DNA of 37,973 nucleotides from Candidatus Peribacteria bacterium (GTDB lineage Bacteria > Patescibacteriota > Gracilibacteria > UBA1369 > UBA12463): the NCBI GenBank assembly GCA_943349045.1, contig CALQZC010000005.1, forward strand, positions 1 through 37,973. Reading direction: 5' to 3'. Below, in pieces: positions 20,514 through 24,224 of the stretch (position 1 is the stretch's first letter; each line of letters begins with the position of its first letter). The notes under the pieces are model-generated. The model made no database searches, was not told where the DNA came from, and saw nothing but the letters and a program-made list of their open reading frames with translations. A program made the position numbers and the translations under genes.

Positions 20514-20543
20514 TTGACGAGATCCATCCTGATCCGCTATAGT
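20514..20543 (+). promoter_or_regulatory. Promoter reading into the argG leader
   Basis: TTGACG (20514-20519), 18-nt spacer, TATAGT (20538-20543), then 8 nt to an ATG at 20552. The position implies a nearly leaderless 36-codon ORF at the 5' end of the argGH transcript. Confidence 0.55.
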
Positions 20544-20551
20544 CGGTGTAC

Positions 20552-20662
20552 ATGACATCCTACTTTTCTCAATATTCAGCTTTGAATAGCAGATCGAGCT
20601 CCGATCTGGGAAGTGTTGTGTCTGCCAATCTTCAGGTTCGTCGTGCTACGCGTCGCGGGTAG
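20552..20662 (+). CDS. Candidate 36-residue arginine leader peptide upstream of argG
   Basis: The ORF runs from an ATG 8 nt after a TATAGT box to a TAG. The peptide is Ser-rich in its first half and ends VRRATRRG, with four Arg in the last six residues (codons CGT, CGT, CGT, CGC rather than the locally favoured CGA). A 7-bp hairpin (20590-20608) lies in the ORF. Two mutually exclusive hairpins cover the Arg codons and stop: GCTAC/GTAGC (20645-20649 with 20659-20663) and GCGGG/CCCGC (20655-20659 with 20663-20667). A run of eight T follows at 20698-20705, before argG at 20725. This resembles a transcription-attenuation leader sensing arginine. Chance is possible for so short an ORF. Confidence 0.4.
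   Translation: MTSYFSQYSALNSRSSSDLGSVVSANLQVRRATRRG
20590..20608 (+). promoter_or_regulatory. 7-bp hairpin in the argG leader
   Basis: CAGATCG (20590-20596) pairs with CGATCTG (20602-20608) around the loop AGCTC. It could act as a pausing hairpin in the leader transcript. Confidence 0.45.
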
Positions 20663-20667
20663 CCCGC
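20645..20667 (+). promoter_or_regulatory. Two competing hairpins over the leader-peptide Arg codons and stop
   Basis: GCTAC (20645-20649) with GTAGC (20659-20663), or GCGGG (20655-20659) with CCCGC (20663-20667) around the TAG stop. They share bases, so only one can form at a time. A weak CACG/CGTG stem (20676-20679 with 20694-20697) directly precedes T8 (20698-20705) and might be a terminator. Confidence 0.35.
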
Positions 20668-20724
20668 ACATACACCACGCCTTTTTCCATATTCGTGTTT
20701 TTTTTACTTTAACCTTATTTTTCT

Positions 20725-21945
20725 ATGAAAAAGAAGATTGTTCTCGCCTATTCAGGCGGTCTGGATACCTCAATTATTACCAAGTGGCTCGCTGATAAAG
20801 GCTATAGCGTGATCTGCTGTTTACTCGATCTTGGCCAGAAGGTCGAAGATATCGAGGTGCTCAAACGAAAGGCCCTCGCGTGTGGAGCTGAAAAAGCGCT
20901 TTCATTCGATGTGAAGGAGGAGTTTGTGAAGGAGTATGTTCTTCCTGCGCTGAAGTGGAACGCAAAATATGAAGGTGAATACTTGCTCGGAACGTCACTT
21001 GCACGACCACTCATTGCCAAGAAACAGATTGAGGTGGCGATTACCGAGGGGGCAGACTATGTGTCTCATGGAGCTACCGGAAAGGGCAATGACCAGGTAC
21101 GATTTGAGATGGCGTACTATGCGCTGAAACCGGATGTGAAGATTATTGCGCCGTGGAAAGATGACGAGTTTTTGAAAGAGTTTCCTGGACGACAGGAGAT
21201 GATCGCGTATGCAGAGAAACATGGGATTCCTGTGAAGGCGACGAAGGCTCAGCCGTGGTCCTCGGATGAAAATCTGCTCCATATTAGTTTCGAGGCGGGC
21301 ATGCTGGAAGATCCCTGGGTTAAGCCACTGCCTGAGATGTTTGAATTAAGTGTGGATCCGAAACAGGCACCGGATGTCGGCGTTACGGTAGAGGTCGATT
21401 TTGAAAAAGGGATGCCGGTTGCGGTGAACGGTGTCGCGATGTCCCCTGCTGAGATCTTGAGTGAGCTGAATGTGATCGGCGGTGCGCATGGTGTGGGAAG
21501 ACTCGATATGGTTGAGAATCGATTTGTTGGCATGAAGTCGAGAGGCGTGTATGAGACGCCGGGTGGAACGATTTTGTGGCAGGCACACAAGGCGGTTGAG
21601 AGTATTACGATGGACCGAGACACGATGCACCTGAGAGATAAACTGATGCCGGAGTTTGCGGAGATGACCTACTATGGCTTTTGGTTTTGTGACAAGATGA
21701 AGGCGATGCAGGCGTTTATCGATCAGACGCAGATCTATGTGACGGGCCGTGCGCGACTTGAGCTCTATAAGGGCAATGTTCTCACGACTGGACGAACGTC
21801 TCCGCACTCGCTGTACGATATGAGTATCGTCTCGATGGACGACGATCATGGCGCCTATAATCAGAAAGATGCGATTGGATTTATCCGTTTGCAGGCGCTT
21901 CCGCAGAGGGTTCAGGCGGTGAAACGAGGAGTGGGAGTTGTGTAA
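20725..21945 (+). CDS. argG: Argininosuccinate synthase
   Basis: This 406-residue enzyme joins citrulline and aspartate with ATP to give argininosuccinate, the penultimate step of arginine synthesis. The N-terminal PP-loop reads LAYSGGLDTSIITKWL (SGGLDTS at 10-16). Further conserved parts are DYVSHGATGKGNDQVRFE, the Ser/Glu-containing WSSDENLLHISFEAG, and GRLDMVENRFVGMKSRGVYETPGG. Length is normal for the family. argH follows after 36 nt, so the two form an operon. The other arginine genes (argB, C, D, E, F) are not in the window, so the cell may start from imported citrulline or ornithine. A possible leader peptide precedes it. Confidence 0.95.
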   Translation: MKKKIVLAYSGGLDTSIITKWLADKGYSVICCLLDLGQKVEDIEVLKRKALACGAEKALSFDVKEEFVKEYVLPALKWNAKYEGEYLLGTSLARPLIAKKQIEVAITEGADYVSHGATGKGNDQVRFEMAYYALKPDVKIIAPWKDDEFLKEFPGRQEMIAYAEKHGIPVKATKAQPWSSDENLLHISFEAGMLEDPWVKPLPEMFELSVDPKQAPDVGVTVEVDFEKGMPVAVNGVAMSPAEILSELNVIGGAHGVGRLDMVENRFVGMKSRGVYETPGGTILWQAHKAVESITMDRDTMHLRDKLMPEFAEMTYYGFWFCDKMKAMQAFIDQTQIYVTGRARLELYKGNVLTTGRTSPHSLYDMSIVSMDDDHGAYNQKDAIGFIRLQALPQRVQAVKRGVGVV

Positions 21946-21981: not shown

Positions 21982-23187
21982 ATGAAAAAAAATTTGATGA
22001 AAAAAATCTGGCAGAAAGCTGGGGGTCAGCAAGTCGACCCCCTCGTGGAGTCGTACACGATTGGTAACGATTATCTTCTCGACATGGAGCTGATTCCTTT
22101 TGATGCGCGCGCTTCGCGCGCGCATGCCAAGATGCTCAAGAAGATCGGGATTTTATCGGCTTCGGAATTGGCAAAGCTCCTGAAGGGACTCGAACAGATC
22201 GAGTCCCTCTCGAGTGCTGGGAAGTTTCATGTCCGAAAGGATCAAGAAGATGGCCATACTGCGATCGAGGAGTTTCTTACTGAGACGTGCGGCGAGGTGG
22301 GTAAAAAAATCCACACGGGACGATCGAGAAATGATCAGGTCCTTGTCGCGATGCGACTCTTTTCGCTTGAGCGAGTTGATGGAATTTTGAAACTTGTAAA
22401 CGAACTTATTTCAGCGCTTAGTGCTGCGAAGAAAAAATATGCGCATGTTTTGATGCCGGGATACACCCACATGCAGCGTGCGATGCCGACGACGGTTGGC
22501 GCGTGGCTCGAGTCATATGCCGATAGTCTGCGTGATGATCTTATTCTTCTGAAAGCTGCTCGAGTCGTCCTGGATCAAAATCCACTCGGCTCTGCGGCTG
22601 GGTATGGCGAGTCTGTACTTGGGAATGACCGCGATTTTACCGCTTCCGAACTTGGTTTTTCGAAGATTCAGGACAATCCAATGTACTGTGCCATGTCTCG
22701 AGGAAAGTTCGAGGTGATTGTTTTACAGGCACTTTCTTTAGCGATGTTTACGGTTGGAAAATTTGCATCGGATCTGCTTTTATTCACGACGAAGGAGTTT
22801 GGATTTTTTGATCTTCCGGTGACGTTTAAAACTGGTTCAAGTATCATGCCTCAGAAAAAAAACTTCGATGTCCTCGAGCTGATGCGTGGTAATGTCGGTA
22901 TTTTTCAGGGATACCTATATCAAATTCAGAACGTGATTACCAATCTCCCCTTGGGATATAATCGAGATTTTCAACTCACGAAAGAGCCATATATGAAGGG
23001 CATCCAACTGGCGATGGATTCGATCTCGATCGCGACGCATGTGGCAAAAAATCTGATCGTGCACCACGAGGCTCTTACCGCTGCGTGTACCCCCGATCTC
23101 TACGCCACCGACGAAGCTCATCGACTCGTCAAAAAAGGCATGCCATTTCGAGAGGCGTATAGGGAGGTTGGGAAGAAGTATCGGTGA
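21982..23187 (+). CDS. argH: Argininosuccinate lyase, short C-terminus
   Basis: This 401-residue product cleaves argininosuccinate to arginine and fumarate. Family signatures are present: SRAHAKML near the N-terminus, HTGRSRNDQVLVAMRLF, the TxxQ-like PGYTHMQRAMPTTVGAWLESY, LGSAAGYGESV, and the flexible catalytic loop GSSIMPQKKNFDVLELMRG near residue 285. It ends at FREAYREVGKKYR, about 50 residues earlier than typical argininosuccinate lyases, so the last helices of the C-terminal domain are missing. The active-site parts are intact, so it is probably functional. A 23-nt perfect hairpin lies in the 5' third. Confidence 0.92.
   Translation: MKKNLMKKIWQKAGGQQVDPLVESYTIGNDYLLDMELIPFDARASRAHAKMLKKIGILSASELAKLLKGLEQIESLSSAGKFHVRKDQEDGHTAIEEFLTETCGEVGKKIHTGRSRNDQVLVAMRLFSLERVDGILKLVNELISALSAAKKKYAHVLMPGYTHMQRAMPTTVGAWLESYADSLRDDLILLKAARVVLDQNPLGSAAGYGESVLGNDRDFTASELGFSKIQDNPMYCAMSRGKFEVIVLQALSLAMFTVGKFASDLLLFTTKEFGFFDLPVTFKTGSSIMPQKKNFDVLELMRGNVGIFQGYLYQIQNVITNLPLGYNRDFQLTKEPYMKGIQLAMDSISIATHVAKNLIVHHEALTAACTPDLYATDEAHRLVKKGMPFREAYREVGKKYR
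22103..22125. repeat. Perfect 10-bp hairpin with TTC loop inside argH
   Basis: ATGCGCGCGC (22103-22112) pairs with GCGCGCGCAT (22116-22125) around TTC. It encodes the DARASRAHA stretch, which aligns with the family without an insertion. Confidence 0.9.
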
Positions 23188-23207: not shown

Positions 23208-24224
23208 TTATCCCCTATTTTTTATTCGCGATACTTCAAACGCCAGGTTCTCAACCAGCACTTTTGCTGATGGAAAATCATACTTTGGAATCAAGCCAAG
23301 TACCATTCGTCGAATAATTTCATCATCCCCCTTATGATCAAGGCCCTTTACGTTCAGCTTTACGAGCTCAACGAGCCATTGCAAGAAACGATCACTATCA
23401 TCTTTAACCATATCCATGACTCTCTCCAATTCTGAGGTGTTCCGTCCTTCATTTTTTTGCTTTTGCAGATCGACACGAAACAATCTTTCTAGCATATCAT
23501 TCGGATAGATTTGTGAAATATACCAGATATCAAATATATCTTTCATTCTCGATGTCTTTACCATATTGCTGGATTCTGAAAGCCGACGTAGAAAAGCATA
23601 CACCTTATCGCTATGAATTTTTCGAATATCCTCTACGACTATTGTTCCTAAATTTAATTCATCAGCATCGGGATAGACATGTAGTACCGGAACTTCTCGA
23701 GGAGAGGTCATCTGACTCTTCTGTCTTGTTACATTTGTTTCCAATTTCATTCGGATGTCCTGGTACTTGAAAATTTTTGGAAATCGAAGGTGGGCTCGAA
23801 GAGTACCCAACTGACCCACATTCCGTATATGTCGTCGTTCGACATCATATACTACGGGATCAAATGGCATTGCCGTTGATCCATAAACGCTATTCACCTT
23901 ATCTCTTGTGAGTGCTCCGATATCGCGAACTCTTGCTCCGTAGTATTCATCTTCCGCTTCTCCGTGCCTTTCGAAGAACTCTCTTCGGGCGCTATAGTCA
24001 ATATCGGTCGTATACCGTGGAAAATTTATAAAATATCCTTTTCGGAGAGCGATTCCACCAATAATAACTGGCACGTCGTCTGTTGAGCGAGTTTCACCTG
24101 TGAATACCTGATTACTTGCAGAGGCAGTTATGCCCATTAGATAGTCTCGAATAACTGGCTGGGACCCCACACCAGCTTCACGACTTTTTTCATCTAGACT
24201 CTGAATAATGTCCCTTTCTTTCAT
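23208..24224 (-). CDS. AbiEii/AbiGii-type nucleotidyltransferase, orphan
   Basis: This 338-residue protein carries the core of the DUF1814/AbiEii nucleotidyltransferase family: VPVIIGGIALRKGYF with the GG at 56-57, then RYTTDID (TDID 73-76) supplying the metal-binding acidic residues. Around residue 200 the pattern DIRKIHSDKVYAFLRRLSES...RMKDIFDIWYI gives the family's conserved Lys and KD-D segment. Members include the toxin of type IV abortive-infection systems, which act by tRNA or nucleotide modification. No AbiEi-type antitoxin gene adjoins it (neighbours are argH and an anchored hypothetical protein). It may be a stand-alone toxin, a remnant, or a housekeeping relative. Confidence 0.72.
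   Translation of the reverse strand: MKERDIIQSLDEKSREAGVGSQPVIRDYLMGITASASNQVFTGETRSTDDVPVIIGGIALRKGYFINFPRYTTDIDYSARREFFERHGEAEDEYYGARVRDIGALTRDKVNSVYGSTAMPFDPVVYDVERRHIRNVGQLGTLRAHLRFPKIFKYQDIRMKLETNVTRQKSQMTSPREVPVLHVYPDADELNLGTIVVEDIRKIHSDKVYAFLRRLSESSNMVKTSRMKDIFDIWYISQIYPNDMLERLFRVDLQKQKNEGRNTSELERVMDMVKDDSDRFLQWLVELVKLNVKGLDHKGDDEIIRRMVLGLIPKYDFPSAKVLVENLAFEVSRIKNRG

Follow-up and report, generated by a model that had tools for sequence, protein, structure and literature searches.

Does the short open reading frame (ORF) in front of argG in a Candidatus Peribacteria bacterium encode a leader peptide through which argG and argH follow the supply of charged tRNA-Arg and, if so, at what step would control be exerted? 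The locus lies in a stretch of 37,973 nt, called the window here, from a genome (G000) of about 1.0 Mb in 54 contigs that is estimated to be 100% complete. The arginine repressor ArgR (PF01316) was not found in this genome, and 0/89 genomes of its order scored above the cut-off in a search that was positive for 8/14 control genomes. The gene for argininosuccinate synthase, argG (20725-21945, on the forward strand like all features below unless stated), is intact, as is argH (21982-23187), a short form of argininosuccinate lyase. Decay of the argGH operon was considered, since argH seemed short, and rejected, argH being of equal length in relatives. Convergent with argH, on the reverse strand at 23208-24224, lies a gene for an AbiEii-type nucleotidyltransferase (PF08843).

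The leader region of the window

A sigma-70-like promoter, TTGACG-18-TATAGT (20514-20543, with TTGACG at 20514-20519 and TATAGT at 20538-20543), ends 8 nt before the ATG of the ORF at 20552, and from its position the argGH mRNA would have little or no 5' untranslated leader. The ORF (20552-20662) encodes 36 residues, MTSYFSQYSALNSRSSSDLGSVVSANLQVRRATRRG, followed by a stop codon, and Arg-cluster ORFs occupy the same place in many relatives, where most leaders are shorter (12-28 residues). Its product ends in VRRATRRG, with four Arg within six residues; the corresponding codons, CGT CGT GCT ACG CGT CGC (20639-20656), are the candidate regulatory codons, and the UAG stop at 20660 is separated from argG by 62 nt. 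Two short hairpins lie over these codons and the stop, hairpin A (GCTAC/GTAGC, 20645-20663, arms 20645-20649 and 20659-20663) and hairpin B (GCGGG-TAG-CCCGC, 20655-20667, arms 20655-20659 and 20663-20667), the latter with the stop codon in its loop, and because they overlap at 20659-20663 they are mutually exclusive. Within the ORF, CAGATCG/CGATCTG (20590-20608) may form a pause hairpin, and downstream of it a weak CACG-N14-CGTG stem is followed by a run of eight T (20676-20705; arms 20676-20679 and 20694-20697, T8 20698-20705). An initial annotation of this DNA had described the promoter, the 36-codon ORF near the transcript 5' end, the Arg-rich end encoded by CGT/CGC, the two mutually exclusive hairpins on the Arg codons and stop, and the T8 before argG, and all of these were confirmed.

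The hairpins and the promoter are each within chance, and the case therefore depends on comparison with relatives: the promoter scan by itself gave 2 matches against 1.8 expected, and the folding of the leader gave z = -1.06 for a 75-nt region and z = -2.0 for the whole leader. The combination is more unusual, as a promoter with 9 of 12 matches stands 5-15 nt before just 22/762 control ATGs and an Arg-cluster ORF lies upstream of only about 3% of control genes. An Rfam search of the window returned one tRNA only, with no T-box (RF00230), and a permissive scan of the leader gave chance matches. No usable intrinsic terminator was found in the window either: the best hairpin before the T8 reaches -0.4 kcal/mol, and no other abuts the T run. 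The window shares with classical attenuators a short ORF at the likely transcript 5' end before a biosynthetic gene and a cluster of end-product codons; it lacks an intrinsic terminator between the ORF and the first gene and, having no terminator arm, the antiterminator pairing.

Arginine leaders before argG across the class

The comparison of argG upstream regions that the initial annotation had advised covered 66 argG loci of the class, oriented by tblastn, and looked for ORFs of 10-40 residues that begin with ATG, lie no more than 400 nt upstream and contain 3 or more Arg in a stretch of 4 residues, or 4 or more in 8. An Arg-cluster ORF was found in 30/66 class genomes, a count in which some are probably chance (L063, L049, L051, L075) and from which clear leaders below the cut-off or beyond 400 nt are missing (L008, L053, L056, L074); the controls gave 3/66 for the opposite strand, 1/29 for argS and 1/30 for hisS (Fisher P about 2e-8). 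When the 20 amino acids were compared, only Arg stood out, with 28/66; Leu came next with 8/66, yet it also reached 8/30 at hisS. Leaders of this kind include MNIWNLVSQLRRRRL, MQNTFLISIRRRRAI and MKNLNFVFTNRRRP, as well as MQINLTQISVANRRTRRSHTSVEFVVN, which precedes an argG 73% identical to that of the window; the identity of argG behind these leaders falls as low as 26%, so that the leader recurs before very different argG lineages. Comparable Arg-cluster leaders precede argF in G031, G006 and G427. Outside the class there is one clear case, L205, with MTTTHNVIRRRRSLAEG and a terminator, and 2/18 loci of other Patescibacteria satisfy the Arg-cluster thresholds. Promoters with at least 9 of 12 matches end 2-40 nt before the ATG in 24/32 leaders and before 51/762 control ATGs (P about 4e-20), and in 11 leaders, including that of the window, the ATG follows the -10 box by 5-10 nt, which would make translation leaderless or almost leaderless.

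Terminators and antiterminators were analysed in 26 leaders, all from correctly oriented loci. An intrinsic terminator (hairpin and T-run) follows the ORF in 24/26, mostly 16-46 nt past the stop and mostly at -8 to -25 kcal/mol, the hairpin picked being in a few genomes (e.g., G673, G674) a second one further downstream and in some cases weak (G425 and the second leader of G028); besides the window, just G007, of the same family, has none. The region of the Arg codons and stop pairs with the 5' arm of its own terminator at a mean of -9.4 kcal/mol, compared with -6.4 kcal/mol for the arms of other genomes, and 0/20,000 permutations were as good. The clearest antiterminator is that of G013, where the leader segment CCTCAGAAGT matches the terminator arm ACTTCTGAGG. 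Arg leader ORFs stand in tandem before argG in G028 (L010), G019 (L014) and G652 (L061), in L014 with one terminator each. Judged by their sequences, the leaders of relatives are classical attenuators, some in tandem and one behind an Arg T-box. The window copy, because its terminator is missing, is classed instead as a probable Arg leader ORF. The initial annotation, which had proposed an arginine-sensing leader with an attenuator and had itself flagged the 4-bp terminator stem as its weak point, is thus supported, as regards the leader, by the relatives and by the absence of ArgR; its doubt about the stem was justified, and at -0.4 kcal/mol the terminator switch finds no support in the window.

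Arg T-boxes and the closest relatives

A second kind of leader, the Arg T-box, precedes argG in the same-genus G001, G002 and G003 and also in G018 and G013; in G001 and G013 the Rfam E is about 1e-16, slightly below the gathering score, and in the other genomes the call is from the conserved T-box core. In G001, G002, G003 and G013 the specifier, as read from sequences and alignments, appears to be CGC (Arg). Arg T-box leaders (RF00230) share with the window leader the gene, argG, and would share the signal, uncharged tRNA-Arg, but they bind the tRNA directly and need no ORF. That three same-genus relatives with argG carry an Arg T-box in place of the leader counts against the leader model, as does the nearest argG relative, L026 (79%), where, in the segment 2028-4248, argG comes directly after rplJ-rplL without a leader. 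The missing terminator of the window and the length of its ORF, above that of most leaders, weigh on the same side. T-box and leader peptide are known to replace each other in front of hisS (PMC2965389).

Two further observations concern these loci. The argG behind the Arg T-box in L022, L019 and L021 (G001, G003 and G002, respectively) belongs to another lineage, about 30% identical. In L023 (G013), positions 300-760 hold an Arg T-box and then an Arg leader peptide, MHNLFSRRNRRRRKKPQKFR, which ends at a stop codon and has its own terminator, the two being in series before argG.

Proposed control of argGH and its alternatives

In our view the ORF at 20552-20662 probably encodes a leader peptide through which argGH is adjusted to the level of charged tRNA-Arg. 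The mRNA would start almost at the AUG, with the ribosome trailing RNA polymerase. When Arg-tRNA is scarce, the ribosome would stall on CGT CGT/CGT CGC and, at the first Arg pair, would block hairpin A and leave hairpin B free; when arginine is plentiful, it would reach the UAG at 20660, cover both hairpins and depart. The RNA conformation would in this way report arginine, and stalling should increase argGH expression. For many relatives the output would be a standard intrinsic terminator; as the window has none, stalling probably acts here by altering the stability of the mRNA, pausing at the U8 run or expression further downstream, for which Salmonella orf34-speF offers a parallel. For the source genome we infer that ribosomes stall, in which direction argGH is controlled and through which step the signal takes effect.

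The main rival holds that argGH was inherited or acquired with its Arg leader, that the terminator has since decayed and that argGH is now constitutive. The promoter, the leader and GCGGG at the stop are indeed present as in G673 (GCGGGTAA) while the terminator is missing, and G007 likewise has an Arg-cluster ORF and no terminator; with the ORF, its Arg cluster, argG and argH all still intact, we nevertheless regard such a vestige as unlikely. It is quite unlikely that the argG promoter is real and the frame after it has its four Arg codons by accident. In favour of this are the GC-rich CGT/CGC repeats, which can encode Arg in several frames, the presence of such ORFs at about 3% of control genes and a structural z of only -1 to -2; against it, Arg clusters recur at argG class-wide and the spacing of promoter and ATG falls in the commonest range.

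Two alternatives keep transcription termination as the output. Classical attenuation, with termination at the CACG/CGTG stem and T8 when arginine is plentiful, would agree with the position of the T8, which at 36 nt past the stop is where a terminator is expected from relatives. With 4 bp closing a loop of 14 nt, the stem is nonetheless far weaker than theirs, and no leader segment was found that competes for it as in relatives, which makes this decidedly improbable. Rho-dependent attenuation would use the C-rich, G-poor stretch past the stop (18 C and 4 G in 62 nt) as a rut site exposed once the ribosome finishes, an explanation tentatively given for the terminator-less leaders of mycobacterial cys operons (PMC1262725). 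No rho gene was found in the source genome, complete as it is estimated to be, the single hit being the ATP synthase beta subunit; a Rho-based output was rejected for that reason and is very hard to credit. What we put forward instead, tentatively and as one possible account, is that this bacterium, which lacks both Rho and ArgR, controls argGH with a terminator-less Arg leader peptide at the start of an almost leaderless mRNA, that the effect is exerted on mRNA stability, on pausing or on translation downstream, and that the leader belongs to a class-wide family that interchanges and combines with Arg T-boxes.

The window leader resembles the trp, his, leu, thr, phe and ilv attenuators in its short ORF behind a promoter, its end-product codons near the stop and its alternative hairpins, and the Arg leaders of relatives also share with them the antiterminator and intrinsic terminator; the differences are that the amino acid is arginine and that the window copy has no terminator. 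The nearest tested precedent for stalling at Arg codons without an intrinsic terminator is Salmonella orf34-speF, in which Arg-dependent ribosome pausing selects between mRNA structures and no intrinsic terminator is reported in the leader (PMC6386406). It too has consecutive Arg codons in a leader ORF, of 34 codons, but it is gammaproteobacterial, its target is an ornithine decarboxylase, Rho and RNase G take part in the control and an SD sequence is present (PMC6386406). The mycobacterial cys leader ORFs are similar in that several end-product codons follow one another close to the stop and no terminator hairpin was found, and differ in responding to cysteine and in the presence of Rho (PMC1262725). 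The same survey of Actinobacteria noted no conserved RNA structures before arginine operons and mentioned arginine T-box control elsewhere (PMC1262725).

No earlier description of a leader-peptide attenuator for bacterial arginine biosynthesis was found in the open-licence literature, and the class-wide family of Arg leader peptides appears to be new, the window adding an unexplained terminator-less form. These leaders point to a possible control of arginine synthesis without ArgR in an uncultured class, in which tRNA-Arg charging would be read by leader peptides, in some genomes perhaps by Arg T-boxes, and by the two in series in G013 at least. Classical attenuators would thereby be known for the biosynthetic genes of one more amino acid, arginine, and from the candidate phyla radiation as well, including TGA-as-sense genomes. 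Leader genes this short would usually be missed by annotation. In the TGA-as-sense genomes G562 and G534 (L093 and L094, with 14 and 21 TGA inside argG, respectively), the Arg leader ORFs use AGA/AGG.
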